64,000 nt of DNA from Geosiphon pyriformis (Eukaryota > Glomeromycota > Glomeromycetes > Archaeosporales > Geosiphonaceae). Under the pieces are notes generated by a model. The model saw only the letters and a program-made list of their open reading frames with translations. It did not search any database and had not been told where the DNA came from. Numbering within the stretch: the stretch's first letter is position 1; each line of letters begins with the position of its first letter. The position numbers and the translations under genes are program-made. The DNA lies in NCBI GenBank assembly GCA_016748015.1, contig JAAOMT010000603.1:415532-479531 (forward strand). The letters run 5' to 3'. Of the stretch, positions 3,003 to 37,060 are shown in pieces.

Positions 3003-5418
3003 ATGGCTAAAAATGACATTCACAATTTGATTAAATCGTATAAAATGAATGTATTCTCAAAAAACGCGCAAAAATAAGTCAACTTTGCGAATACGGCTAC
3101 ACTTCTCTCGCTCAAGTAGTGGCAGAACAGACTGATAACCCGATTGATCTGACCCCGAGCTCACGATTATCCGAATTACTTTTTATTGCCAAAGAACAAG
3201 GTTGTGATTAGGGGTTTTAAGAAAATGGAAAATCATGTAGACCCATCAAAATGTGATTTAATCATAGATCTCGCAATCAATGGATTGCTTTTCAAGCTAT
3301 GCATCGATCAGGAACACTTCTGTTAAACTGCTTTTGTTTCAATAAACTTGGGTATACTTTGGTTTCTTTGCAAATATATTCAAAAGAATTGAATTTTCTC
3401 ATTCACAATATTGAAGATGAAGGAGATGAAATGCGCCCATCTCAAATGCCTGACGATATTATTGGTGAGGACTCACCGGATGAGGAGAATTATCAAAATC
3501 ATTCAAGATGGCTGACATCTGTAGACCCTGATAATAGACCTGGTAATTCTTTTTCTCCCGTTTTCTTATGTCGATCATTACCAAGTGCTTGGATTGATCA
3601 TCGTTTCCTAATTTTATCTTTATATTTTAATTCCTCTGAACAGTTACCAAAACTTCACCAAACTTCTCAACATGGTATATAACTACACATCGAGCTGCAT
3701 CAACTTGTGCTATTTTTAGTGGCGATGGTAAATTCTCATGATTTCCCAAACAAAAAGATGGGATTATGATATGGTGTACTATTCTTTTGAAATTTACCTC
3801 CAATTGAAATAATAGCATTGGTTTTTAATTCTCCTTATTAAATTCATTCGATTTTAACAACTTTTTATTTATTTTCTCAGGTAAGTATGCCGCGACCGGA
3901 TCCGCGGATGCATCATTGAAGGTCCTCGATACTCGCAAAATGAACAGCCGTTCGGATGAAGATAGACCAGTCATACGTACCTTATACGATCATCTTGCTG
4001 TACGTCTTTTTTAAGGAAACCCTCATCGAAAAGATCATGTCCTTACCTTTTTTTTTTAATCAGACCTTGGAAATGTTCCTTTCTTTGATGTAGACCTCTC
4101 ATCCTTTATATCCATTTATATATTTTGAAATAGGCCGTCAATGATTTATCTTTTCATCCTAATGGTCTGGTTCTTGCATCATGCTCCGAAGATCAGAGTA
4201 TAAAGTTATTTGATCTTTCAAAGCCTGGGGTTAAACGATCTTTTCGGTATTTGCAGGTAATAATTGATTTTTTCTATATCTTCAATTACTCTTTAATATA
4301 CTTTATCTTGGCTTTTGTTAGGATACTCATATTGTGAGATCAATAGCTTTTCATCCATCGGGTGATTTCATTTTAGCAGGTATTTTTGCAGTATGGGATT
4401 GTAATTAAATTTTCTCTAATAATTTTATTAAATTTCTTAAGGAACGGATCATGAATCTATAAGAGTTTATGATGTAAAAAAATTTCAGTGTTACACAGCA
4501 TCAAGCAATCCAGCTGATCTTCATCGTGGAGGAATTACAAAAGTATATCAATGCTTTTAATGTTGGTTATTTTTTTAACAATCTTCCGACCATCAATTAA
4601 TTTTATCTATTTATTGTTATATAGGTACGGTTCGCTAATAATGGATCTCAATTTGTTACATCTTCTTTAGATGGAAGCATCAAAATTTGGGATACAGTCA
4701 GTGGAAAATGTATCAAAACGATAGAAAATGCACATGATGGTGCCTTGGTATCAAGTGTACAATTTTCTAAAAATGGGAAATATCTACTATCTGGTGGAAA
4801 GGATTCTATCTGTCGATTATGGGAGGTTGCTAGTGGTCGATGCATTATTAAATATGAAGGAGCGATGCAAATGGTGATCAATAATATAAAACCACATATT
4901 TCATTTTTTTTTATTCCTAAATCTTTATACCAGTTTTTCCATTTTTTTTTACAGAATAATGCTATACAAACCACCTTCACATTTAATGAAGACTTCGTTC
5001 TCAGTAGTGATGAGAGCAACAATACTGTTGTTTGTTGGGATACGCGAACTGGGCAGTTGATCAAACGATTTTCTGGTCAGTATAAAAGAATAATTCAGCT
5101 CAAACAATTGAAAAGGGTATATCAGATTGTTCGACAAATGGTGAAAATTTTCAATATTTTACAATATTCATGTATAGGACATGCTAGCATCGTTCGATGT
5201 GTGGCAGCATCTCCCACTGAGCCAGGATTTATTAGCTGCAGGTATTTGAAAAAACATGGTATTTTATTACTGAAAATCATTGACATTCATTTTTATTTCT
5301 TGTTAAAGCGATGACTTTCGTGTTAGGCAAGTAGTTTTGCTGTTTAAGCTTATTTAAAAGAATAACAATTTTAACACTAATTCCTATGCGTAATTTTAGA
5401 TATTGGAACCTGGATTAA
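3003..5418 (+). CDS. CSTF1: Cleavage stimulation factor 50 kDa subunit (CstF-50)
   Basis: WD40 subunit of the mRNA 3'-end cleavage and polyadenylation complex. Thirteen exons: 3003-3037, 3079-3200, 3417-3542, 3644-3727, 3881-3999, 4134-4256, 4322-4379, 4442-4542, 4625-4873, 4955-5075, 5178-5241, 5309-5326, 5400-5418. The N-terminus ([20 protein letters not shown]) matches the family's dimerisation helix. Then come [121 protein letters not shown] and DDFRVRYWNLD, then TAA. The intron after exon 12 starts GC (GCAAGT), a GC-AG intron. Least certain parts: the 41-nt first intron, and the exon 2 to 3 join, where the family usually has more sequence. Confidence 0.92.
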
Positions 5419-16695: not shown

Positions 16696-17667
16696 TGTTA
16701 CTAGAGGTTTTTGGTCTTTTTTCTTAAATGTTGGTAATGTTAATTTATTGTGAATTCACGTTCTCAGAAAGTAGGTGAACCTCTAGTAACTGAATTTATC
16801 TTCAAATTATCTCCTATAATCTGAACTGCTGGGCTTATAAGTGGAATAGCCAATTCCTTGCCAGTTATTTTATGTAGTTACATTGTAGTAAACATCAACT
16901 CTTTCCCAGGAATTGCTCGTCTGGAAGCTCACTAAAAATGTGTAGTTACTTTGCTGTGAAAGTCAACTCTTCTACAAGAATTTTGTCTGTAGGCTATCCT
17001 AATGATTGTAATAAAAAAAGAAAAGAAAAATAAAAGAAATGTAAAAGAAATAGGATTTTATTAAGAGAAACGTTTTCTATTCAGGCCTGGAGTTACTAAC
17101 AGTTTATTGAAATTGGTAGTTAATCAATTTCAAAATGTTAATTGGGTTTTGGGGATTTTCCAAGTGCAATAATTAAAGAATTTGGTTTTTTGAATTATTT
17201 GATATTTATTTCTTTTTGTGTGTATAGGAATGGTTCTAAGTGATAAATCTAAAATAAGATACATTTTTTTGAAGAGAAAAGCTCTTCTTTTATACAACTT
17301 GTTGTAGTACTAGTCTATGAACTTGCACTTTTTCTCTTTGCTCAAATTTCGGTGAATTAAAGATACATTTTGATGAACTACAAGTTATTTTGCTGAACTA
17401 TTGATTAATTTGGGTGAACTATTCATAATTTTGGTGAATTTCTTATAAATTTCAGCAAATTTTTGAATATTATAAAGTTCAGAGTATTGTGTAATTTGAT
17501 CATCCTACTTTCTGTTATACTAATTAGATTATTTTGATTGAATTGTGATATGTGATAATTGATTAAATAATAAATGATAATTTGAAATGATATTAATATA
17601 CTAATTAATTATAGGAATTATAAGGGTAATTTCATGCTAATTAATAGCTAAAATTCTACTAGTAACA
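16696..17667 (-). repeat. 3' LTR of the Gypsy element
   Basis: 972 bp, starting TGTTACTAGAGG and ending CTACTAGTAACA on the plus strand. It aligns end to end with the other LTR at about 95-96% identity by eye. Nearly all differences are transitions and there is one 1-base indel near 17450. Confidence 0.93.
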
Positions 17668-18352
17668 TAATCTCCTCCTCAAGACTGAGCTCCATCAAAG
17701 TCCAAGTACTATCTGTAATATTGAGATAGTAATCCAAAATAATTGAAGTAATCTGGTCTGAAAATTGTTGAAATTCCAGTTCTGTGAGTTTGCCAATGTA
17801 TTGGACTTTCATTGGTTGCAGTATTGGATTTTGTAGAACATTTTCACAAGTATTAAACAAATCATAGAGTCTAAAAGCTGCTTTAAGTTTGTAGTGAGTG
17901 TTTGTTGGTCCAGCTGCTGTTTTGAATTCATTGTGAATTTGTTTTTGTATAGCTTCAGGAGTGAGATTTGTTGCTTCAAGTTCTAGTTTTCATTCATAAA
18001 GTGTCTTTCCAATGTGAAAGTATTTATAGATAGGAGTGTGTTCATTGTTCTGTTTATTGAAAAGTAGTAAAAGTTTTTGTTGTATTGTAGTATTTAATGG
18101 AATGTCAATAGAGGCAATTAAAAGATTTTTTTCTAGTGCTTGCTTTAAAAGTCTTGGTAATCTATTTTCAGAGTGACTTCTTGTTTTTCTTCTATAGGTG
18201 ATAGTTCTGTAAATGATTTGCTACTGGGGCTGTGGTTTCTTTCTGAACATAATTAATTTGACTTCCATTAATTGTTATGGATAAGTCAGAAAGTGTTTTT
18301 AAGGCTAACATTAACTTTTGGGATATTTGTTGAATATTTCGGGGAATAATCA
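17648..18352 (-). pseudogene. Accessory ORF downstream of pol, degraded
   Basis: Lies between the polyprotein stop and the 3' LTR and runs about 20 bases into the LTR. A Met at 18352 opens MIIPRNIQQISQKLM. The sequence then needs at least two frame changes to follow coding-like stretches (SPIEEKQEVTLKIDYQDF; later LLKQALEKNLLIASIDIPL). It becomes a clean frame to the end: FHIGKTLYE, a TGA, then KLELEATNLTPEAIQKQ and finally the 70 codons ending LSLEEEIMLLVEF. No family was recognised. An extra ORF in this position is seen in some Gypsy elements (for example env-like or regulatory), but there is no membrane segment here, so an envelope role is unlikely. Confidence 0.55.
17668..17683 (-). promoter_or_regulatory. 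Polypurine tract
   Basis: Read on the minus strand, the bases just before the 3' LTR are CTTGAGGAGGAGATTA, a purine-rich run of the kind that primes plus-strand DNA synthesis in Gypsy elements. Position directly abutting the LTR supports the call. Confidence 0.7.
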
Positions 18353-18498: not shown

Positions 18499-19884
18499 TT
18501 AAGTGTTTAAGTTTGATTGTTGTTCTATTATAATTATTGGTTCTAAATTTCGGGAAAAATCTTCAGGATTAATTAAAAGAGAATATGTACCAATTTGTGG
18601 AATTAATGGTTCAGGATTGTTACTGGAATGATAATGTTTCAATCTGTCTCTATGTGCAACTTTTGCTAATATTTTGTCATCAAGTCTTAACTTGTATGAT
18701 CTATTGCCTAGAATTTTGTGAATATAAAATGGTCCATCTCATTTATTTTCAAATTTCTCACTCTATTGTTTTTCAGCCTTAGTTCTGTGTAAGAAAACTT
18801 TATTTCCAACTTTAAATTCATTAGTAATAGGTGATAATTTGTTATCATGTCTTTCTTTTTGTTGAGCTTGGGAATGTTCAATATGAGTTGCTGCTATTCT
18901 TCTTTTTCCTTCCAGTATACTAAGAAGAGTGTAGGCTCTTCTTTGAAATGTTTTTTGAAAGTTTTCTTCATTGATTGGTTGTATTGGGTATGTTTCTACT
19001 ATAAAATTAATTGGTAATATTGCTGTCTTTCTATAAGTAAGATCAAATAATATGTGTTTTGTAGTATTTTGTTTTAGTGTTCTGTATGCTAGTAACACTG
19101 ATGAAATAAAGATATCCCATTCCTGCTCAAAATCTGTTGAGACTTTGGCTAAAGATTCACACAATGTTCTGTTGAAACGTTCTACAAGTCCATTTGTTTG
19201 AAGATGATAAGGTGATGATAAAGGTTTTTTGATATTGAATCATTCACAAATTTCTTGTATCAATTTGTTCACAAAATGTGTTCCTTGATTAGATAAAAGT
19301 TCAATTGGACATCCATGTTTACAAATAATGTCTTTATAGATGAAATTTGCTACTGATTTTGCATCTGCTCTTTGGATGGCTCTAGCTTCAGGCCATTTGA
19401 TAAGATAATTCACTGCAACTGCAATATAACGATTTTCTTGGGTTGTAATAGGTAATGGTCTGACTAAATCAATTCCAACTCTGTCAAAAGATTGTCCAAC
19501 TTTGATTGAATTTAAAGATTCTGTGGGGCAAGTTTTTTCTCTTCTTTGACAACTATTACAAGATTCTACATATTGTCAAATGTCTTTTTGCATGTGAGGC
19601 CAAAAATAATGTTCAAGGGTTCTTTGAATTGTTTTATCTCTTCCCAAGTGTGCTGAAGACAGATCTGTGTGCATGTTGTATAAAATTGTTTCTTTTTCAT
19701 TCTCTTGTACTAATCTGAGTGGTTGGTTTGGGTTTCTGTGATTTTTATAATAGATTTTGTTCTGGTGTATAAAATATTGTTTTGATTGGTATTGTAAACG
19801 ATGTTTTTCACTTGAAGACCAGTTTTTTGGCATGGTAAGAGTCTCCAAATAATTTTTAAGATTGCTGTAATTTCTGGGATCCAT
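18499..19884 (-). other. Integrase domain of the Gypsy polyprotein
   Basis: Starts with the HHCC zinc domain: MHTDLSSAHLGRDKT, then ESCNSCQRRE after a stop. The DDE core follows: VGIDLV (first Asp kept), LSNQGTHF (second Asp changed to Asn, codon 19288-19290), and NGLVERFNRTL (Glu kept). The C-terminal part has VGNKVFLHR, DGPFYIHKILG and HRDRLKHY, as in Gypsy integrases. Four stops interrupt it. Loss of the second Asp would abolish strand transfer. Confidence 0.9.
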
Positions 19885-21375
19885 TCTTGTTTGGTTATTT
19901 TGTTGGTAGATTGGTAAGTTGTGGTGGAATTGTTGTTGGTATTAATCTTGTCTCATTCTTGAGAGGCTATCAACATTGGTATGTAGTTTTCCTGGTTTGT
20001 GGTGTACAATATATCTGTAGTCTGCTAGGAAGTTATTCCATTGAGACTGTTTGGCACTTTGTTCAGTTTTCTTTTTATTGAACTATTTGAGACCAATATT
20101 GTCTATTATTATGTCAAATTCTTTTCCATTCTTCAGATATTGTTGAAAATATTTAAGAGTCCAAATAACTGTGACAGCTTCTAATTTAGTTGAGCCGTAT
20201 TTTAGTTCTGTTGGTTTGAGTGTTCTACTAGCATAAGTGATGACTTGTTCTTGCCCATTTTTATCTACTTGTGATAAGATGGCACCAAATGCTATGTGTG
20301 AAACATTAGTAGCTAGTTGAAATTGTTTGTTGAAGTCTGGGTAAACAAGAACTGGGGCTGTTGTCAGCTTTGTTTTGAGGGTTTCAAATGCTTTTTGTTG
20401 TTCTTCAGTCTATTTGTATGGCACATTTTTATTGGTGAGATAATTGAGTGGTTTGGCAATTTCTGAGAATCCTTTGATGAATTTTTGATAATAGGAGACT
20501 AATCCTACAAATCCTCGTAGCTCTGTGGTATTTTTTGGGATTTGGAAGTTTTTGATAGCACTAATTGTTCCAGAGTTTGGTTTGACTCTATCTTTGCTAA
20601 CAATATGTCCAAAAAAAATTAAGCTTGTTTTTCCAAAGTAATATTTCTCAATATTTAACTTCAATTCTGCTTTCTGTAATCATTGAAAAACTTCTTGCAG
20701 ATGAATAAGATAGGCTTCAAAGCTTGGTGAGTACACATCAATATCATCAAGATAAACAACTACTGATTGCCATAAGAGTCCTTCATATACAACATTCATG
20801 AGTCATTGGAATGTTACTAGTGCATTGCAGAGTCCAAAAGACATAACATTGAACTTATAGTTTTCTCTTTGGGTGGTGAATACTGTTTTGGGTCGGTCTT
20901 TTGGGTCCATTTTGACTTGCCAGTATTCACTTTCCAAGTCTAAAGTTGAGAAGAACTTGGTTTTTCCTAGAGCATCTAGCATGTCATCAATTCTTGGAAA
21001 AAGATAAGCATCTCCAATTGTAACACTATTCAGTTGTCTATAATTAACACAAAATCTGATTTTTTCATTTTTCATTTTAACTAAAACTACTGATGAGGCC
21101 CAAGGACTTCTTGATAGTTGAATCAATCCGTTATTGAGCATTCTTTGGACCTTTTCTCTGATAAATTGGTGGCTGGCAAGTGGCACTTGATAGGCTTGTT
21201 GATGTTTTGGTGGAGCATCTTCTGTATGAATCTGATGTTGAACAATGTCTGTTTTTCCCAAGTTATTGTTGTCTTTTGCAAATATATCTGCAAATTCAGC
21301 TATCAATTGTTTCAATTGTCTTTGTTGTTGAGGTTCTAAGGGACCCATGTTGATTCGAGAGAGTTTTTCTTCCAA
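19885..21375 (-). other. Reverse transcriptase and RNase H domains of the Gypsy polyprotein
   Basis: RT blocks in order: the lead-in PPKHQQAYQVPLASHQFI, SPWASSVVLVKMKN, RFCVNYRQLNSVTI, RIDDMLDALGKTKFFSTLDLESEYWQ, FNVMSFGLCNALVTFQ, then the catalytic YLDD at 20743-20754, then FGHIVSKDRVKPN and ELRGFVGLVSYYQKFI. RNase H follows with K-stop-TEEQQKAFETLK, LATNVSHIAFGAILSQ (family TDAS, here TNVS, an Asp to Asn change), ITYASRTLKPTE, and HHKPGKLHTNVDSLSR. Five stops lie in this part. The RT catalytic Asp pair is intact; RNase H is not. Confidence 0.92.
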
Positions 21376-21786
21376 AAAGTAGTAGTTTTCAGTAGTGGGA
21401 ATGATATTTGGATTTGAAAGTAGAGTGTGCCTTATAATTTCGATGAAATTAGAGACAATTTGAGGGTTTTCATCTTGAAAAATATTGCTGTGTATGATTC
21501 CAATCTCTAGTTTGTTTAATAAAACAATAGGGTAATTATTGGGGTTATAGAATATAACTCAAAATTTTTTTATTCCTTTGGGAATATAAACGTTTGGAAT
21601 TGAGATTTCATGCTTTAAACAGATTTGTTTATTGGATTCAAAGATTTGTTGTGTGGTGGTGGGTTTTGAGCAAGTATAAATTTTGTGATGTTCTCCAAAA
21701 AGTAAAATAGTAATTGGCTGGGAAAGTTGAAGAATTTGGTGAGATTCATTTTGTGTATTAAGAGCTATGTTTACTAGAACTGTAAA

Positions 21787-22392
21787 TCATCCAGTTGAAC
21801 CAAAATCTTGAGTTCTTCTTTTACTTTTTCCCAATTGTTCTCTGTTGTTTACTGATTGTAATCCCGAAATGTTGATTAAGAGTAAGTAAATTGCTTGAGC
21901 AATTTTTTCAACATGTTCAATTTTGAATGGTTTGTCTGTCTCATTCTGTAACATGATAGTAATGTCTCCAGTGTATCCTGCATCTATAACTTCTTCTCTA
22001 ATATTGATTCCTTTGCTTGCCAATAATGATCTGGAGGCAATTTGAACCATTGCTTCTGGTGGAATTTCAAGAGCAATTTTGAGATTGATTTTTGTCAAGG
22101 ACTTTGGTTGGAGAACCAAAGTATTTTTTCCTGAGTATCTTAGGTTATATCCAGCATCAATTTTGTGTGCTTTTTCTGGTCTGATTCCTTGGCCATGGTT
22201 GTCAAAATATTTAAGTTGTAGAGGTGGTTGTTTTTCAAGAAAATAGATGGGTGCAGTTAGTAGTTTTTCTACTAGTTCAGATACTCCAAATTTGATTTCA
22301 TTTTCGTCATTCTCATCTGGCAGAAGAATGCTAAGAGCATAATATTCTAAACACCATTGGTCATCACAAAACATAACACATTCTTCACACAA
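21787..22392 (-). other. dUTPase domain inside the Gypsy polyprotein
   Basis: Trimeric-type dUTPase, which hydrolyses dUTP to dUMP. Counted from the Met at 22392, the five signature motifs are: 1, IDAGYNL (residues 78-84; the family usually has Asp before Leu, here Asn); 2, ASRSLLASKGI (119-129); 3, VIDAGYTGDITIMLQN (135-150, with the catalytic Asp at 137); 4, VEKIAQAIYL (161-170); 5, RRTQDFGSTG (192-201, a P-loop-like arm; the family has RGxxGFGSTG). It sits in the same frame between the Cys-rich domain and RT, followed by a TGA and about 130 residues of linker. dUTPases are known from several retroviruses; one between protease and RT of a fungal Gypsy element is unusual. Confidence 0.9.
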
Positions 22393-22908
22393 TTGAATGT
22401 TTATTTGCTCTAATCATTGAATTTGAGCTTTTTTGGTCAGATATGTGTGGCTTGCCATTTGGTGATAGGTTTCTACTTCATCTTCATAATCAAATCCAGC
22501 TAATTCTATGGTATACTCAATATATTCAGCTTCTTTCATTTGGCAGACATTTTTTTGGGTGGCTTCATTGATCAATGCCATTGCTAGATCAAAAATTATT
22601 TCAGCATCATGAGGGTAGTGGTAAAGTTTATTGAGAGCACTGTTGTATGCTGCATCAAATAGTGTTCCTCTTCTGACTTTTTCCGAAATTAATAGAGCAT
22701 ATTGACAGGTTTGATCACATACTCCTCTTCTCATTGCTACATCAATCCAATTGCATTCTTCTAGTAGCATTTTTCCACATGTAAGACAAGGAGTTTTGTC
22801 CCATTTTCCACTTCTCTTTGGAGATCCAAATTGTTCTCTATGACATGCCTTGCAGAAGTAACAAGTACGAGTTTCATATTCCTCTTCTGGGGAAATACAG
22901 GCTCCCAT
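22393..22908 (-). other. Cys-rich domain between protease and dUTPase
   Basis: Same frame as the neighbouring domains and part of the polyprotein. It begins just upstream with CKDCKKK and continues with CYFCKACHREQ, CLTCGKMLLEECNW and CDQTCQYALL: at least four Cys pairs that could bind zinc. An acidic, mostly helical part follows (residues 80-160), ending TYLTKKAQIQ at a TGA. No family is recognised. It may act as a nucleic-acid-binding or structural module. The domain is joined to the dUTPase by 7 codons after the stop. Confidence 0.6.
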
Positions 22909-23133
22909 AGATAAAAGCTTTTTTTTGCAATCCTTGCATTTTAGTGGAATATATGGTGGTTTTTTTCGTGGTTCTGGTATAGAATATCTAACTTTCTTCT
23001 ATTTCCTTGATTCTTCAAAAATCTCTTGTTCTGTTTCCTCAGCCCAATTGGATGGTAATTCAAGAGCCATGTAGGTTTCAGTGAGTGGCATTTCCTTCTT
23101 TTCTTCAAATTCAGATACTGGAGCTTTTTCTGA

Positions 23134-24222
23134 TTATTTGTTAAAGGTACTACAGATTGCAGGTACTATGGTATATTGTCCTTGGTATGAGATTTTAAGT
23201 TCTTGAGTTTCCCAGTTCAGGTTTGCATTGGCCTTGAGAAGCCAATCATTTCCAACTAGAGCTTGATATTGGGGTGCATTCATAACAAGAACTTTAACTG
23301 GAATGGTGATTCCATCAATTGTAAAGAGGAAGTCATCAATTTCTCCTACTGAAGTCTTCTTCATACCATTAGCTGTAACAATAACTGTTTGAGCTGGTCT
23401 GTCTACATTTTGTTTGAGTTGTTGCATCAGCTGGTAAATGATAATACTTCTAGCTGATCCACTATCTAAGATTAAGCAAATAGGTTTTTCTTCCACTGTA
23501 GCTTCTGTATACATAGCAGTAATTGCTTTCTGTTCATTAACTGTTGCATTACTAAGCAGAAATGGTGATTCATTTGCTTCAAATTCAAATGGAAATATAT
23601 CTGACAGATTGGCATTTTGGGCAATTTGAGCTGGTAGAATAGTGTGGTTGGAAGGGTTTGATCTTGGTGCTACAACTTCACTTTTAGAAAGTGCAGTTTG
23701 TTGAAAATCCGATTCCTCTGGTATTGTAAAATAACTGGATTGAGTGTGATAGTGATTGGGTCTTTGCTGACCAGAATTTCGGGGAACCAACTGGTTATTT
23801 GGATTGATTCTGTTGTGGTTACTCTGCAATTGATTTTGGGGTGTAAATTGGTTATGTTGAACCAATCTTCTTGTTGGTATTTGATATTGTTGAGTGGGTG
23901 GTATCTGATATGGCTGAATTGGTAAAGGTTGCTGATATTGTTGCTGCATTGGTTGTAGAGCTGGTGGATAGTAACTGTTTTGATTTTGTGGTCTTGGTGA
24001 ATAATAGGTTGGTGGTGGAGATTGGTAATAGAATTGTTGTGGTGAAGAGTAATGTTGATTACTCCTGTTTTGTTGGTCTCTTTGTAATTTCCTACAATCT
24101 TGTTTCCAGTGTCCTGGAATTCCACAATAATGACAATTTTGAGATTGGTTGTTGGATGGTGATCCAAAATTGTTTTGGTTGTATTGTTGTGGGGGTTGAT
24201 ATTTTTGTGGTTGTTGTTGCTG
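23134..24222 (-). other. Zinc knuckle and aspartic protease of the Gypsy polyprotein
   Basis: Frame stays open from the TAA at 24223 to the TAA at 23134. A CCHC zinc knuckle, CHYCGIPGHWKQDC, is at 24135-24094. A long Gln/Asn/Pro/Tyr-rich linker follows. The retropepsin-like protease has ICLILDSGSARSII with the catalytic DSG at 23466-23458, and a GNDWLLKANANLNW block typical of fungal Gypsy proteases. The enzyme would cut the polyprotein into its mature parts. Confidence 0.88.
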
Positions 24223-24225
24223 TTA

Positions 24226-25565
24226 TTGTTGGTTTGTAAAGTAGCTTTCAACTTTTTTTGTGAGTTGGTCTATCTTCTCTTCAGCTGCTGAGCTGGTTTC
24301 TCTAATTGCAAGGTTTACAAGCTTAGTGTGATTTGCTTTTTCCATTGTCATTTCATAGTTCTTTGCATGTCTAATAGCAGTTGCTAAGTTTGCTGGAGCA
24401 TGTGGACAGACTTTCTTAATCAGTTTGTCTTTTAACCCTGCTATAAACTGATTCAGAATTTGAGCATCAGAATAGTAGTCATTGGTTTCTAATTGTTGAA
24501 TTCGTCTGAAAAGTTTGTTAAATCTTCCAAGATAGGTCATAACAGTTTCAGATGTTTCTTGTTTGATATTGCAAAAGCGGTTTCTAAGAGTGATAGAGGT
24601 ATTGTTGTCAGTGAATTGTTGTAGAAAAGCATCTTTGAATGCTTGCCAGTTTTCAAATGGTTCTTCTAAATTTTCAAACCATTCTCCTGCTGTTTCTTGG
24701 AGAAAGTAGGGAATTGCTTTAAGCATTTTTGCTGCAATCCAACCATTTGCATCTTCTGCTTTTTGAACTTTGTCAAGCCATTCTTGAGAACTGGTATCAT
24801 CATCTTTACCAATGAATTCTGGGATTTTGCAATGTAAGCAGTTGTCATTTCTTTTTCATTTTCTGTAATTTCTTTTGGTTTTGATTCAGTTTCTTCACTT
24901 TCCAAGCTTTCTGAATAATTACTTTTGTTTTCCTGTAAGTAATCAATGATATTGGCACTTGTTGATATTAGTTTTTGCTGTTGAATAGGGTTTCTAGGTG
25001 ACTGAAAATCTTCTGGTCTGGAGAAGCAGTTGAGTGGTGAATTTGGTGTTTGTAGTTGAACAAGTGAAATTGGGAATGGTGTAATAGAAAGTGGTAATTT
25101 GACACTAGTTTTTTGTTCAAGTGTTTGCAAGTGTTTGGCAGATGTCTTTTGTAGTGTTGGAGTGTTTGAAATGGTTCTTGAGTATTGCTTTAATCTTTGT
25201 TTGCCTTTGTTGCTTGTTTTTGTCTCTGATTCAAAGTCAAAAGAGTATTTAGACTGTACTGGGTATTTTTCTTCACAATACTCAATAATGTTAAAATTAA
25301 GTTCTTGAAAGTAGGTAGCAAGTGTTTCACTGTTCAGGTCTTCTGTTCCCAATTGTGAATAGTGCACTAAATTATTGTAGAGGTTGCTTCTAACTTCTGA
25401 AATGTTGTAGTTTCCAAAAAGATAATTGTTAATGCAGTTTTCAATGTATTGGTATACTGATTTCTTGACAACTTCAATTCCGTCTGGAATGTTGAATCTT
25501 TGCTTGCAGTGGATGTAAATTGACTGGTAATACTCTAGAGTTGCTGTCTCTGGTGTGGTCGCCAC
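24226..25565 (-). other. Gag region of the Gypsy polyprotein
   Basis: The N-terminal part starts MATTPETATLEYYQSIYI and has no recognised domain; Ser/Thr/Pro-rich in the middle. After the frameshift near 24827 the Gag capsid-like block is clear: LKAIPYFLQETAGEWFENL, WQAFKDAFLQQF, VMTYLGRFNKLFRRI and ILNQFIAGLKDKL, matching the retrotransposon Gag family. The ribosomal read would stop soon after the frameshift in this copy. Confidence 0.85.
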
Positions 25566-25591: not shown

Positions 25592-25608
25592 TCCGTGGAA
25601 GAGCACCA
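25592..25608 (-). promoter_or_regulatory. Primer-binding site
   Basis: On the minus strand, two bases after the 5' LTR end, the sequence is TGGTGCTCTTCCACGG. It starts with TGG, the complement of a tRNA CCA end, and is long enough for a primer site. The cognate tRNA was not identified. Confidence 0.65.
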
Positions 25609-25610
25609 AA

Positions 25611-26581
25611 TGTTATCAGAAGTTTTTGGTCTCTTTTCTTAAATGTTGGTAATGTTAATTTACTGTGAATTCACATTTTCAGAAAGTAGGTGAACCTCCA
25701 GTAACTGAATTTATCTTCAAATTATTTCCTATAATCTGAACTGCTGGGCTTATAAGTAGAATGGCCAATTTCTTGCCAGTTATTTTATGTAGTTACATTG
25801 TAGTAAACATCAACTCTTTCCCAGGAATTGCTCATCTGGAAGCTCACTAAAAATGTGTAGTTACTTTGCTGTGAAAGTCAACTCTTCTACAGGAATCTTG
25901 TCTGTAGGCTATCTTAATAATTGTAATAAGAAAAGAAAAGAAAAATAAAAGAAATGTAAAAGAAATAGGATTTTATCAAGAGAAACGTTTTCTATCCAGG
26001 CCTGAAGTTACTAACAGTTTATTGAAATTGGTAGCTAATCAATTTCAAAACATTAGTTGGGTTTTGGGGATTTTCCAAGTACAATAATTAAAAAATTTGG
26101 TTTTTTGAATTATTTGATATTTATTTCTTTTTGTGTGTATAGGAATGGTTTTAAGTAATAAATCTAAAGTAAGATACATTTTTTTGAAGAGAAAAGCTCT
26201 TCTTTTATACAATTTGTTGTAGTACTAGTCTATGAACTTGCACTTTTTCTCTTTGCTTAAATTTCGGTAAATTAAAGATATATTTTAATGAACTACAAGT
26301 TATTTTGCTGAACTATTGATTAATTTGGGTGAACTATTCATAATTTCGGCGAATTTCTGTAAATTTCAGCAAATTTTTGAATATTATAAAGTTCAGAGTA
26401 TTGTGTAATTTGATCATTCTACTTTCTGTTATACTAATTAGATTATTTTGATTGAATCGTGATATGTGATAATTGATTAAATAATAAATGATAATTTGAA
26501 ATAATATTAATATACTAATTAATTATAGGAATTATAAGGGTAATTTTATGTTAATTAATAGCTAAAATTCTATTGGTAACA
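25611..26581 (-). repeat. 5' LTR of the Gypsy element
   Basis: 971 bp, starting TGTTATCAGAAG and ending TATTGGTAACA on the plus strand. It contains the element's promoter by position. Compared with the other LTR it shows about 40 differences by eye, nearly all C/T or A/G, several at CpG sites (for example CG in one copy and TG or CA in the other). Confidence 0.93.
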
Positions 26582-30289: not shown

Positions 30290-30414
30290 TAAAAACTCTT
30301 TCTTTCGTTGATCCCCTGACCACAATGAGAGCATAGAGTAGTCAAAGAAATATCTTCCTTTTCTCTTATTCTCTTCTGTTCCCTTCAGTTATTTCTTTAC
30401 ATACACCTCTGTTT

Positions 30415-32382
30415 ATGACAATAAATCCAGTAGGCTCTTCTGCTGGTGGGTCAGCATCTGGTTTGGCTGGTGTGGGGACCTGTTCTGGTAATAAAAAAAA
30501 GGCGTGCGTTGAGAGTGTTTACGCTCATGGTCCGTCTTACAAGAAAGTGAAGAAACCTGATGATTTTGGTGTTGTTGTGGATTCATCGGCTGGCTCTCTG
30601 CCTGTAAACATGCTACATGGTAGCATTGATGACTGGAAGAAATCTTGGGGTAGTGAAATGGACAGTGAGGAATCAAGTATTGGCAGGACTTCTGACGTTG
30701 AGAACATGAAGAACACAATTGTGGAAGAAACGAGCTACGTCAATTCCGATGCTTCCGGGGATGACAAACTAATGGGTAATGCTATGCCAAAGGGTTTGAG
30801 AACAAGAATGTATGTATTTGATCACCTGCCTAAGCAGCCTTCTTTCGTTGATGTGAGTGGTACTGATGATGTTTTGGAGCTCCCTTCTTGCACATTCTAT
30901 GGATCCAATCAGTTACTGCCAGTCGCGTTACATGATCGGGAGATTTGGAATTTTATTTCAGTGAAATCTTTTGCATTGGATATTGAACTTTCTGCTGTTT
31001 CTGGGAAAACTGTTAGTGATAAGTTGATTTGTGTAAAAAAGATTTTTTATCAAGTTGATGGTTTTGGGGGGGGGCTTTGACTTCCTTAAAATTTTCTGGA
31101 ATAATAAGGTCATCATTTACATCTGAAAAAAGTTTGATTAAGGCAAGGGAAATGGCAATCAGTAAAAAAATTTTGGTAAATGATGATCTAAGAAAAATAA
31201 ACAGCCATTCAGATTGGGAGGTGATCGCCAAGGAAATCCCAGTAGATCTTCCCAAATCAGCGATTGAGGCAGTATTCTTCAAGTTTGGCAAGATTATTTC
31301 AATTAAAGTACAGCTTATTGGTCTTTGGCAAAAAGTCCTAGTGGAATATAAATCATCTGAAATAGCTGATTTGGTCACGGTTAGATGGTCTGTGCTCATG
31401 GGAAAAGATTCTGTTTGCGTGGCAAAGGCGTGTGTTGATAAACAAACGTGGGTATCTAGGGATCAGCATTGGGTGTTGTTTTACACTCTTTCAGTTGGCA
31501 CGACTGCTCATGATTTGTCTGAATTGGTGAAGGCTTATGGTGGGAAAACTTGTTTTATAGGCCATAATCCAACTTCATATGTTCGTGATCAGTGTGCTGT
31601 GATTTGTTTTGAAAGTGAGGCATCCAAGTTGGCTGCTATTGGTTCGGTTCCAGTTTTCAAAGATGTGGGCTTGTGTTGGGCTGGTCTTTCTTTGGCCAGT
31701 TGTGCTCATTGCAAACTGTTTGGTCATATTGCTGTTGATTGCTCTGTGGGTAGGGGGTCTGGGGGTTGTGGGAAATGTGCGGCGACTTCTTAGAATAGGG
31801 TACGGTTGGCCAATATTTATAGGAAGAAGCAGGCACCGATTGTCCGCCCAGTTTCTTTTGGTGGAAAGACATGGGCCCAAGTGGCAGGCAGCTCTCCCTC
31901 TTGTGTTGTCTCTTCAAGTGCTCCTGGTGTTGGTTCAATCTCTGGTTCGAAGGCTTTCTCAATGGATTCCTCCTCATTTGGTGCTGCTGATCTAGGTGGT
32001 CGCCTAACTGTGCTGGAACACTCCATGGAAATTCTCTCGGACCAAGTGTCACTCATTTTAAAGAAATTAAGTTTTCATTGACTTGGTGTCATTGGCACCC
32101 TCTCCCTCAGCTCTTCCTTTGGTATCTCCAACTGCCGTTGTTTCAGATATAGACTCAGGTTTGGCTTTGGATAGTACGTTGTTATCATCTGCCTCTTTTC
32201 CTCCCAATGTTGGTGAGTTAATTGTTGATTTCAGTCCGAGCAGTTCTAGGGTTTTGACTGCCAAGATTGGTGGTTTGGAGTCGAATATGGTGGCTCTTAA
32301 GGCTTCAGTTCACTCAGTTTTGGATAGATTGGATTATCTGCATTCTGGATCGGGTTCGTTGGCTTTTCCTTCATCTCAATGA
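30415..32382 (+). pseudogene. LINE ORF1 (RNA-binding, CCHC zinc knuckle)
   Basis: About 655 codons in pieces: 30415-31074, then one frame to 32078 after a slip in a nine-G run (31066-31074), with a TAG at 31791-31793 (Q to stop likely), then a second slip near 32075 and a last frame to the TGA at 32380-32382. The N-terminus is Ser/Gly/Asp-rich and polar. The middle has an RRM-like block (ALDIELSAVSGK, LKFSGIIRSSFTS, IEAVFFKFGKIISIKVQL). A zinc knuckle, CAHCKLFGHIAVDC, is at 31701-31742. The C-terminal part is helical (LGGRLTVLEHSMEILSDQVS; GGLESNMVALKASVHSVL) and may oligomerise. The stop overlaps the ORF2 start as ATGA. Confidence 0.85.
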
Positions 32383-35300
32383 GTGGTTTGGTTTGGAAAT
32401 TTGCTGCGTGCAACATTCAGGGTATCAATGTTTCTATGAAGCAAGATGTTGTTCATTGGCATGTGAACTTGGGGAATATGGTTTCTTTCATCACTGAGAC
32501 TAAGTTGAGGTCCTCTTCTGGGCCATGGATAAAGGACAAATTTGATGGAGTGCGAATATTTTTTTCTGGCTTGGATAAAGGTTTTATGGGTGCTGGAGTT
32601 GCAATTGTTATAAACGTTTCTTTGGCCTGTCATGTATCTAAGGTGGAAGAAATTCCTGGTCAGATTATTTCTGTTTGGCTCCTGTTTAAGGACAAGCTCT
32701 TGGTTACTGTTTTGGAGTTGTATGCTGGTGCCTCTTCTGGAGCTAGATTTGGTCAGGCTTCTGAAGTTAACTCTCTCATTGCAAAGGCAGTCAACTCCAG
32801 CAATTTTGTTATCTTGGGTGGGGACTTTAATGAGAATGAATCTGGTAGAAGTGCTAGTTTCAAGTTTTGTTTGAGTTTGGGTTTGGTCAATTCATTTGTT
32901 GGTTATCATTTGGCTAATTTTTATATGTGGAGCAATTCGAGAGGAGTTGGGAAAACGATTGATTACATTTTTGTTGGTGGTAATTTGTCTTCTGCTATTG
33001 CTGGTTATTAAGTTGTCTCTGTTTTGGATTTCTTTGACACCGATCACAAAGCAGTTGTGGTTTCAGTTGGTTTGGGTGGGCTTCTAGATGTACAATTGAA
33101 TAGTTTGTGCAAGCAGGTGAATAAAGATTGTTGGAAGTTCAAAATCAAGAATGCTGACTGTGTTGGATGGGCTAAGTTTAAGGATCTCTCGTCAGCTAGA
33201 CTTTTGTCTTTGGGTGAGGTGTTCTTTGGTACCGAAATACGTGGTAATGTGGATACAATGTGGGCAGTTTTGGTGGGGGCTGTAGTAGATTCTGCTGATG
33301 TGACATTTTCAAGGCTTTGGTTTAGTGAATTCAAGTGTTCAAGAAACAAACATTCTTCTAGGTTTTTTGGTCTGAAATTGTTGGTGGCCAAGATTGTCAA
33401 AAAATTTTGCTCTGGTGACTTACTGGGTGCTGATTGTCTTGTGAGTAAATAGTCAACTTTGAATAATGTAAAGGCTCATGTTTTCAAGGACTTGGTGGGC
33501 TCAGGTGTTAAATTTGATGTTGTTGTTAGGCATTTGTCATTGGTTCGCAGAGATTACAAGAGATCGAAGATGTTTGAATCAAGGTTGGCTGAGAAAGCTT
33601 CAGTTAAGAAGGCGATTGAAAAGCGCATGGATAATTTCTGTTTGGATAAGGGTAGTATGATCAGGAGTATGTTGGAAAAGCCTTTTTGCAAGGTCGTGCT
33701 GGATCACTTAATAGTTGACAATGATCTGGTTTTGTTGTCTGAAGAGGTGAAGTCCAGTGTGGATAGAATAATGGAGGGGTGGACGAGGAAACGCTCCGTG
33801 CAGTTAGTGCTTCCTGGTCTTTGGGCTCGTCAGTACGCGCCTTTGGACTATGTTCGGGATGATGCTTTTTCAGGTGTTATGAGTGCTATCAGTATGGGCA
33901 AATTACTCTCTGTTGTTGGTGGTCTTCCTGATGACAAGACTGCTGGTTTGTCTGGTGTTCCTAATGAGTTGTGAAAACATGGTGGTGAGGTGGTTTTGGG
34001 GTGCCTGTTGGCACTGTTTAATAAATGTTTGTCTGTTGGTGTGGTGCCTGTTTTGTGGAAGAGGGTTTGGGTGTCAATGATTCCTAAGCCTTATGACTGG
34101 GATGGAGTTCTTATGAACACTCGGCCCATTGTTTTGATTGAGACAGCCAGGAAGATTCTTTCTAAGATTCTGTCTGATCGTATTTCAATGGCTTGTAGCA
34201 AGTTTAATGTTCTTCAGGGTGACAACTTTTCGGTGCTGAAGGGTACGTCTACCCAATCTCTGGTGTTTGCTGTCAGATCGGTGATTGAGGATGCCATTGA
34301 GAAAGATAGGGAGTTATGGTTGGTCTTACAAGATATGCGGAAAGCTTACAATTCAGTTGGGTGGCACCATTTAAGAGCTAGTTTGCGGCATGTCAAGATG
34401 TGTGAGAGATTCATAAGGTTTTTTGGTGGTATTCATGAGGATAGAGTTAATAGGGTGATGACTGACTTTGGTTTGTCTGGTGGTTATAAGGTGTATGATG
34501 GGCTGGATCAGGATGAGGTCTTTTTGCTGCTTCTTTGGAGAATTTTTTATGATCTGTTTTTGTGTGAGGTTAAGAGGCACGAACAATTGTGTGGGTACTG
34601 GATTGATACTAAGTTTGTTTCAAAATCTGGCAGAATTGAGAGCGGTGGCGGTTTGACATCATATTTTTTGGCTGGTGCATTTGTTAATGATACAATCTGG
34701 GTTGGAAATTGTCAAGCTTCTACTCAATATGCTCTGAACATTACCAGTGAATTTTTTGTGATCAATGATATTTCTATCAATAGTGAAAAGACGGTAGCTA
34801 TTCCCATCAATCAGGGCGTTAAAGTTGCTTCACTAAACATTTGTGGTCAGCCAATTTCTATTGCTAAGAAAGGAGAAGCACATTGGTATCTGGGTATTTT
34901 TCTGTCAACTGAAAGGCTCTCCAAGCCGAGTGTTGCTAAGGCTCATGTGGATGTACGTTTCTTCGTCAATGTTGTGCTTAGGAAGGATATTACAGACAAA
35001 CAGTTCTCCTATCTGGTGTCGGCTGTTTTGCAGCCTATTGTTGCCTATCGTATTCAGTTCAGTTTTGTCTCATTTAATGTTTGTCGCAAGTGGGATGTCT
35101 TGGTTAGAAAGGATCTTAGGTCCAAGGCTTGTCTCCCTCATGATTTTCCAGATGCTGCTTTACATCATTCCTCATTGTATGGCCTAAAGCCTTTTGAGCA
35201 GGTGCAGTCAGAAGGGAAGATTGCTGCTTTGATGGTGTTCTCTAATGCCTATGGTATTCTTGGGCATTTGTTTAGACATAGGTTTTTGGACCTTCAGATT

Positions 35301-37060
35301 CTTAGTTGGGCTCCTTTGGATCTTTTGCAGTTTCTGGTCAGGTTGCGTGTTAGTCCGGTGAACAATTTTTTGGCTGGGATAGTAAAAATCTTTCTGGACA
35401 ATGAGCTTGCTTTGGTGAACAACCTTCCCACTGTATTTCGTAGTCCTGGTCAGTTTCTGTTGTCCTCTGTTCTTGGAAAGTCTCTGTATTTTGATTTGGT
35501 CAAATCTTTTAAACGTTTTGGTGTCACTTTTGGTGATCAGTTTTTTGATAAGAAGGGCGTTTTGTTGGATTGGAAAACTTTTCATCGTTGGAAAAGGTTG
35601 GATCCGTGTGGCCCTGTGTCTCACTGGTTCATGGTTTCTTCTGAGTTTTTGAAGGGTCAGGGTTACTCATTTTCTGGTTCTATTGGCTATGCGGAAAAGC
35701 TTGGTTTGAACATTTTGGGGTCTGAGGAATTTTCTGTGGTAAAAGATAGGATGCATGACGTTTGGTCGGGCTTTTTTGAAGTTTTTACGGATGGGTCTTT
35801 GAAGAATGCAGGCTCTGCTGAAGTTGCCTGTGGTGCTGTTGCATACTTTCCAGTCTTGAATAAAAGCATTGGTGTTGCTGTTCGTGGCCTTTTGTCATCT
35901 ACTTTGGCCGAGTTACAGGCTGTTGCTTTGGCTTTGGAGTGTGTTCCTTCTTCTAGTACTGTGGTGTTACGTCTTAACAGCCAGGCTGCCATTGATGCAT
36001 GTGTATCTGAGATGTCCTTGGTTGCCCCTGATTTCCATAATCAATGCTGGCTGGAAAGGCGTCATATTTTCAATTTGGTCAGGGATAAGGATCTTAGCAT
36101 GAGTTGGGTTAAGGTGAAAGGACACTCTGGGATTCCTGATAATGTAAAAGCTGACTTGGCTGCTGAGGCTGCCTCTGGGTCTCCCTTTTCTCTTTGTGCC
36201 GATGTGCATGAACATTTTTTGGTTGCTGAGGGTATTGCTGTTTCTGGTAATGCCCGTCATTTTGTCAGGAATATTTTTCAATCAATTTGTTGTGCTCGTT
36301 GGGAAGCTGGGCCTGGTTGTGACGTGGTTCCGAATGCGATAATTGGTTGCATAAACTGGGTTGTCACAGCAGAGGTGTGACATCCTGATTCTCATATGCT
36401 TGCTGGGTTCACTAGCTGCGCATCCTCAATGCTTCACACTTATGTTATGAAGGCTGTACACAGGAGGTTGCCAGTGGCGGTAAGGAAGAGGTTGTATGAT
36501 AAGTGCTATCCTAGTGTACTGTGTTTGTTTTGTGGCGAGGTGAAGTTCTCTGACCACGCTTTTACTTGTGTTCATGAGTCTGGCGTTCGTGATGAGATTT
36601 TGGCAGAGGCTTCTGCCCGTTGGTCAGCTTTGGCTGGTGGTTCCCCTGCTTCTGCCATGTTGTGAGTTTTGTCTCAATGTTCTATTGATGTTGGGCTGTA
36701 CACTTTGGTGTGCAAAAGGTTTGTGCTGGAGAGTGGTATGAGGAGGCTTGCAGTGTTTTTGAGGATAGAAAGATGGCCGCTGCTCGGATTGTTGATTTTG
36801 TCAGGTTTGTTGTTGGGTTATATCATGCTAAAGTATGGTTGGCTAGGGCCAGCCACCAGGTGGTGATGGAGAAGGCTGGTCTGGTTTGTGACGTTGGTGT
36901 TGTTTCTGGGCTTCCTTGTGGTATGTCTTCGGTTTTGTCTGATGGTGTTGTGAGATTGCTTGGTGTGGCCAATTCCTTTGCTGTTAGCTTTGGTCATTGG
37001 AAGCCTTATTGTTTCTTTTCTGGTCTGGGTAGCAGTGTGCAGGTAATTATAGATGTGTAG
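32379..37060 (+). pseudogene. LINE ORF2 (APE endonuclease, reverse transcriptase, RNase H)
   Basis: One frame from 32379 to about 36730, then shifted by one lost base to the TAG at 37058. Stops at 33009 (TAA), 33450 (TAG), 33972, 36378 and 36663 (TGA). Endonuclease: ACNIQGINV, ITETKLR, ILGGDFNEN, DTDHKAVVV. RT: TRPIVLIETARKILSKIL, LVLQDMRKAYNSVGW (second Asp of motif A now Asn, 34350), FVNDTIWV (catalytic FVDD now FVND, 34686). RNase H: FTDGSLKNAGS, LAELQAVALALE, RLNSQAAIDA (catalytic Asp now Asn, 35976), KGHSGIPDNVKADLAA. A Cys/His tail follows (VRKRLYDKCYPSVLCLFCGEVKFSDHAFTCVH), as usual after RNase H in such LINEs. Confidence 0.9.

Follow-up and report, generated by a model that had tools for sequence, protein, structure and literature searches.

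In a stretch of 64,000 nucleotides from the genome of Geosiphon pyriformis, referred to here as the window, we identified a full-length Ty3/Gypsy retrotransposon at positions 26581-16696 of the minus strand, with a dUTPase situated between its protease and its reverse transcriptase (RT). With a probability of roughly 0.8, we read it as a dead copy of a high-copy lineage in which the dUTPase has long been fixed at this place and whose working relatives would clear dUTP where cDNA is synthesised. The kind is already known from fungi, rotifers and planarians; what looks new is the variant, by virtue of its host, its copy number, a 13-cysteine module before the dUTPase and a predicted, motif-free dUTPase fold after it.

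The element, all of whose features lie on the minus strand, is bounded by a 5' LTR of 971 bp (25611-26581) and a 3' LTR of 972 bp (16696-17667), both with TG...CA ends and flanked on their outer sides by a 4-bp target repeat, TCAG. Two bases inside the 5' LTR is a stretch, recognised by eye, that begins with TGG and resembles a primer-binding site (25593-25608), and a purine-rich stretch stands just before the 3' LTR. The paired LTRs, the target repeat and the primer-binding-like site are those expected of a Ty3/Gypsy element, and the Pfam domains follow in the Gypsy order of gag, protease, dUTPase, RT, RNase H and integrase. The gag capsid region (24226-24855; PF03732, 3.2e-15; PF19259, 4e-10) is followed by a region (23137-24222) holding a CCHC zinc knuckle at about 24138-24088 (zf-CCHC 7e-4; 20.0 bits, just below the cut-off of 20.8) and an aspartyl protease at about 23505-23242 (PF13650, 3e-8). 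Then come the Cys-rich module (22290-22998, delimited in an alignment of seven rows), the dUTPase with its five motifs (21790-22179; PF00692), a linker (21451-21786), the RT (20413-21378), RNase H (20086-20409; PF17919, 2e-33) and an integrase (18502-19941) composed of an H2C2 zinc-binding part, a core and, by eye, a GPY/F-like tail. The RT is interrupted by TGA at 20805-20803 and 20682-20680; RVT_1 was matched in the piece at 20806-21558 (2.2e-10), and the short pieces at 20683-20802 and 20413-20679 gave no Pfam match. Four stops fall inside the integrase, where PF17921 scored 5.7e-11 and, in this broken copy, rve (8.9e-5) and rve_3 (3.1e-4) remained under cut-off; in the tail piece (18502-18738), where the copy is broken, there was no Pfam match and no chromodomain was detected. 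Thus gag, the PF13650 protease, dUTPase, RT, RNase H and the integrase H2C2 part exceed their curated cut-offs, while the two integrase-core pieces and the CCHC knuckle fall below theirs. This order upholds the initial annotation in its central claim, that a dUTPase linked to an uncharacterised Cys-rich domain lies between protease and RT of a fungal Gypsy element. At 17651-18220, between the integrase and the 3' LTR, a different frame has two open pieces (113 and 76 codons) that are perhaps an extra ORF, and an open piece of 306 codons, likewise in another frame, lies upstream of gag and overlaps it.

A single frame is common to protease, Cys-rich part, dUTPase and RT, as had been proposed for protease, dUTPase and RT, but that frame is not open. 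Between 24855 and 18502 it holds 15 in-frame stops (8 TGA, 4 TAG and 3 TAA), namely TGA at 22416-22414, 21789-21787 and 21561-21559 and 12 further ones, so that the four parts cannot be translated straight through. An alternative genetic code, suggested by TGA being the commonest stop, was rejected because 7 of the 15 are TAA or TAG and because the host's other copies differ in the stops that they carry. The window copy is dead, given these stops and an Asn in place of Asp in dUTPase motif 1. Elsewhere in the window, on the plus strand, we noted a LINE-like element at 30337-36377 (endonuclease, 32328-33008; RT and RNase H, 33975-36377), around which positions 31-37 kb have 41-47% GC and the flanks 7-10% and 12-17% GC, and exon-like pieces of WD40-repeat genes at 598-1176 and 4625-5311.

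The identity of the dUTPase is secure at the level of profiles. PF00692 matched 22179-21790 (residues 78-207 of the translated segment 21790-22410) with 60.8 bits against a cut-off of 22 (E 1.4e-16), and the five motifs of trimeric dUTPases, first read by eye, are all present in order on the minus strand. Fifty-nine distinct PDB sequences were matched at E <= 1e-3 (best 6.9e-10), most of them named dUTPase and two dCTP deaminase; a homotrimeric state and dUTP hydrolysis are predictions. In an alignment of seven rows whose identity to the first row is 50-61%, the Arg-Ser of motif 2, the Asp and Tyr of motif 3, the Gln of motif 4 and the Phe-Gly-Ser of motif 5, residues that we take to be catalytic, were invariant, and the Asp of motif 1 was kept in six of the seven rows, the exception being the window copy with its AGYNL. 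A search for matching proteins returned 243, and of the 120 listed, 119 were named Geosiphon pyriformis, the remaining one (P0001) being the window's own. Among these 120, the motif 1 Asp was kept in 100 of the 119 rows with a residue at that column (the window's protein counted) and the motif 3 Asp in 97 of 120. Of the 86 listed rows in which none of the eight checked motif positions is missing, only 23 are canonical throughout, so most copies cannot work; single copies decay freely.

If single copies decay, the question is whether the domain belongs to the lineage, and for this we turned to the whole genome (124.7 Mb, 406 contigs). At least 150 places exceeded the PF00692 cut-off, this being true of all 150 that were scored out of 3,181 candidate places. 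Less damaged copies were found: L104 has a single open frame of 1,307 codons that runs through protease, dUTPase, RT and RNase H, and L103 one of 1,433 codons that covers gag, protease and dUTPase, with the Cys-rich part inside both frames. A metagenome protein of 1,064 residues, P0234, likewise comprises protease, dUTPase and the first part of the RT. The 20 best of the 150 scored places by dUTPase (L081-L100) all had the Cys-rich part upstream, and 16 had an RT match within the 1.5-kb flank. Choosing copies by RT alone (the 29 top-scoring loci of 150 scored places, the window's own excluded), we found the dUTPase in 28 and the Cys-rich part in 27. The sole RT-chosen copy lacking the dUTPase, L134, matches the element at window positions 23250-22190 and 21533-19306, that is, on both sides of the gap, which indicates that L134 lost the intervening stretch. 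The association also extends across diverged families, as the Cys-rich part lies upstream of the dUTPase in the A group (dUTPases 78-87% identical to that of the window), in the B group (45-57%, with L118 included by its tree placement) and in L117 and L119 (48-49%). The dUTPase is therefore a fixed part of the element lineage and not an insertion. Some very long open frames over the dUTPase (e.g., 1,847 codons at C296) were considered as a long Pol and rejected, since they include stretches that are open in several frames. Similar stretches, open in several frames on both strands after a broken element, occur at L101 (4374-8687), L102 (4882-9660) and L105 (2074-4059), and look like repeat arrays free of stops.

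Comparison of the RT-chosen copies with one another suggests how the domain has been kept. When the pairs for each part were binned by that part's own dS, median dN/dS in the class 0.3-0.6 was 0.25 for the dUTPase (46 pairs), 0.23 for the Cys-rich part (28) and 0.20 for the RT (78), and below 0.3 it was 0.54 (229), 0.60 (318) and 0.34 (326), respectively. Since this way of binning is in itself enough to lower the ratio, pairs were also binned by mean dS, using the 21 of the 29 copies that have all four parts. In the class 0.2-0.35 (97 pairs) the ratios were 0.36 for the dUTPase, 0.44 for the Cys-rich part, 0.24 for the RT and 0.29 for the linker, and in the younger class (112 pairs) 0.67, 0.79, 0.37 and 0.52. 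A neutral simulation of C:G-to-T:A change, which covered the first three parts, gave 0.67-0.88 for the dUTPase, 0.61-0.65 for the Cys-rich part and 0.54-0.59 for the RT, above the ratios of these parts in the more diverged pairs and close to the 0.67 and 0.79 seen for the dUTPase and the Cys-rich part in young pairs. In a set chosen by dUTPase score, and so biased towards a conserved dUTPase, family A gave 0.14 for the dUTPase, 0.18 for the Cys-rich part and 0.10 for the RT, and family B gave 0.40 for the dUTPase. The RT values in the RT-chosen set are biased low by the selection of copies on RT score, and pairs throughout share copies and are not independent. Taken together, the differences between older copies look constrained by purifying selection, and those between young copies look close to neutral decay.

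The two parts flanking the dUTPase give the element its particular character. In the alignment of the Cys-rich module (Geosiphon families, P0234 and the distant P0259), 13 cysteine columns are kept in at least six of the seven rows, in the pattern CxxC, CxxC, CxxC, a wider C...C pair, a helical stretch and then CxxCxxxCxxxxCxxC directly before the dUTPase. From this pattern the module probably binds zinc. It has no credible Pfam family (the best, Imm15, had E 0.014, under cut-off), and its structure model was poor (pLDDT 59.5, pTM 0.32), with a scatter of unrelated Foldseek entries (best E 0.95); a model of such low confidence neither claims nor excludes a fold. Three proteins, P0272, P0274 and P0276, lack the module by eye. 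For the linker (21786-21451), the predicted fold matches dUTPases, and no dUTPase motifs could be discerned by eye. When the profiles of the linker and the dUTPase domain were compared, the register was right by eye and the match not significant (P 0.15 and 0.33). Going by the fold prediction, the linker is probably a degenerate domain of dUTPase fold, retained for a role in assembly or in spacing towards the RT. It is tempting to go further and, tentatively and at somewhat less than even odds, to regard the whole protease-RT junction as a purpose-built unit in which a zinc-binding module, a dUTPase that is catalytically complete and a dUTPase-fold domain without the motifs lead into the RT, a tandem dUTPase having arisen inside the retrotransposon and one partner having turned scaffold. 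The two-domain dUTPases of herpesviruses (EBV; PDB 2bt1, 2bsy) offer a loose comparison; in the Geosiphon element the first domain has all five motifs and the second none.

A pathway for the working relatives can be envisioned as follows. Once the protease had processed the Gag-Pol precursor, the dUTPase would lie next to the RT, or remain joined to it, inside the particle, and would there convert dUTP into dUMP at the site of cDNA synthesis. Less uracil would then be built in, so that uracil-DNA repair would spare the cDNA, while the Cys-rich module would probably bind zinc and hold the precursor or nucleic acid, and the linker would probably serve assembly or spacing to the RT. A role for dUTPase in retroviruses has been described (PMC4531489). 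Since the host has a dUTPase gene of its own, the need for one in the element is not obvious. It may be argued that the domain is kept for some other job, such as assembly, work as an RT cofactor or host signalling, with its dUTPase chemistry incidental. The neighbouring linker, with the same predicted fold, no motifs by eye and a dN/dS of 0.29 in older pairs, would fit this, as would the dUTPase-related gene of bovine immunodeficiency virus, which is critical for replication although its protein is without activity (PMC4261571). Against it, six relatives, each sharing 50-61% identity with the first row, have preserved the residues of the catalytic motifs, and a purely structural role would not require this; we therefore consider another job unlikely, and prefer the clearing of dUTP during cDNA synthesis.

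A different benefit had been suggested in the initial annotation, namely that the dUTPase matters in a genome whose transposons decay by C-to-T changes. The decay itself is extreme. The two LTRs, which under the standard model were identical at insertion, differ at 45 of 971 aligned positions, and all 45 differences are transitions; LTR pairs have thus diverged since insertion in the same manner as the rest. In 15 non-overlapping pairs drawn from the RT-chosen copies and the window, transitions account for 3,833 of 4,375 differences, and the ten closest pairs show only 77 transversions in 2,122 differences (summed by hand). At the protein level, single C-to-T or G-to-A steps make up 1,221 of 1,757 replacement cells, though they represent only 96 of the 862 possible single-base replacements. 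Relative to a fully symmetric process, all three sets show a slight sense-strand excess of G-to-A: 0.209 changes per G and 0.184 per C in the copy pairs (P 2e-5), 25 of 118 G sites and 20 of 164 C sites in the LTR pair (P 0.048), and 849 of 5,885 and 372 of 4,238 for protein replacements, the cells of which are not independent. CpA is the hallmark context of RIP, and in the copy pairs C-to-T changes were not concentrated there, CpA standing at 0.86 of background and CpG at 2.53. RIP signatures have also been reported as absent in Gigaspora margarita (PMC8647823). The decay is thus neither RIP of the CpA type nor one-stranded editing of cDNA, with a small contribution at the cDNA stage possible; changes on both strands, nearly free of context and reaching into the LTRs, indicate a process acting mainly on integrated double-stranded DNA. 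That the dUTPase is an answer to this decay seems to us quite improbable. The G-to-A excess would have the direction that an effect at the stage of cDNA synthesis should produce, and loss of the lentiviral dUTPase raises G-to-A changes in non-dividing cells (PMC4531489). Yet in the largest DNA set the rates of change on the two strands are similar, the LTRs share in the divergence, and dUTP incorporated opposite A replaces T and by itself causes no C-to-T change, so the proposed connection is at best weak and what remains of it is the slight strand excess.

As to where the dUTPase came from, the host's cellular gene was located at around position 1500 of L116 (C262:402677). It is split by introns, and its motif 3 differs from the retroelement form; a pattern for the cellular motif 3 gave four matches, the other three being retroelement copies. 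In the protein-similarity search this gene was not among the 150 scored places, which we read as retroelement copies. A search for uracil-DNA glycosylase turned up a single partial match (E 9.1e-4). In a tree of 39 rows, 20 of them from 80 viral-contig loci, 16 retroelement dUTPases (ten from this genome and six metagenome proteins) fall on one side of a branch with support 98/93, and the host's cellular dUTPase groups with those of human and Entamoeba at 100/98. In the comparison with the host gene that had been called for, the tree thus supports separateness; its rows exclude retroviral dUTPases, other fungal elements and other fungal host genes. Judged by this tree, the retroelement dUTPase is not a recent host capture, and the tree does not show its source. 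A profile of the retroelement set had as its best PDB matches dUTPases of poxvirus type, phage and cellular origin within a few bits of each other, lentiviral ones being slightly lower (the virus names are in part our own attribution), and P0234 alone matched lentiviral dUTPases best, so that these comparisons point to no clear retroviral affinity. Viral contigs scanned with the window's dUTPase and Cys-rich pieces yielded no relative, and the 80 loci kept from 248 confirmed stretches in a profile scan of viral contigs were rejected as such elements, an RT match being present in 0 of 80. Plasmid records searched with P0276 gave 52 records, none covering 80%. One 5.3-kb record filed as a Wolbachia plasmid encodes a retropepsin, RT and RNase H (NZ_CP087956.1:1469-2865), with a product 49% identical to P0276 over half of P0276, and may be a misfiled eukaryotic retroelement. 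Although the window copy is broken and seemingly independent captures have been described in fungi (PMC2864245), a chance capture or nested insertion in the window copy, or a recent capture of the host gene, is scarcely credible for a domain that 28 of 29 RT-chosen copies carry, that diverged families of the genome have in common, and whose clade (98/93) leaves the host gene outside with human and Entamoeba (100/98).

A dUTPase in a fungal Gypsy polyprotein had been called unusual; that it is new is not supported, since earlier work describes it in Postia, Phanerochaete and Tuber (PMC2864245). In PosPlaTy3-5 of Postia, as in the window element, the dUTPase of a fungal Gypsy element lies between protease and RT, and dUTPase-bearing elements are also described in Phanerochaete and Tuber (PMC2864245). 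These elements come from a survey of chromodomain elements, and the portion of it available to us makes no mention of a Cys-rich module or a second dUTPase-fold domain (PMC2864245). The LTR retrotransposons Juno, Vesta and TelKA of bdelloid rotifers likewise have a dUTPase between protease and RT, but Juno is described with an extra zinc knuckle after the dUTPase, whereas the Geosiphon element has its 13-cysteine module before it (PMC5408684). Giant Gypsy elements of planarians have PF00692 in the same position and differ in their very large size and their other extra domains (PMC6431247). In another fungal genome, that of Entomophthora muscae, PF00692 is enriched together with retroelement proteases, which is presented, in the part of the source at hand, as an enrichment of transposon-related domains without element anatomy (PMC11105155). 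In the literature searched, mostly open access, we found neither Geosiphon nor any other member of the Glomeromycotina reported to have a dUTPase between protease and RT, and no report of the 13-cysteine module or the second dUTPase-fold domain.

One practical consequence concerns annotation, as 119 of the 120 proteins listed are deposited Geosiphon 'hypothetical proteins' that match the transposon dUTPase. The predicted second dUTPase fold before the RT provides a concrete hypothesis on the source of retroelement dUTPases: were it to turn up in the linkers of Gypsy elements lacking a dUTPase, the fold would have belonged to Gypsy Pol from early on and would not be a late addition. The element shows that, in a genome with at least 150 places above the dUTPase cut-off, a transposon lineage can keep a dUTPase of its own over the long term in a host that already has one, and it thereby becomes possible to test outside animals why certain retroelements guard themselves against uracil.
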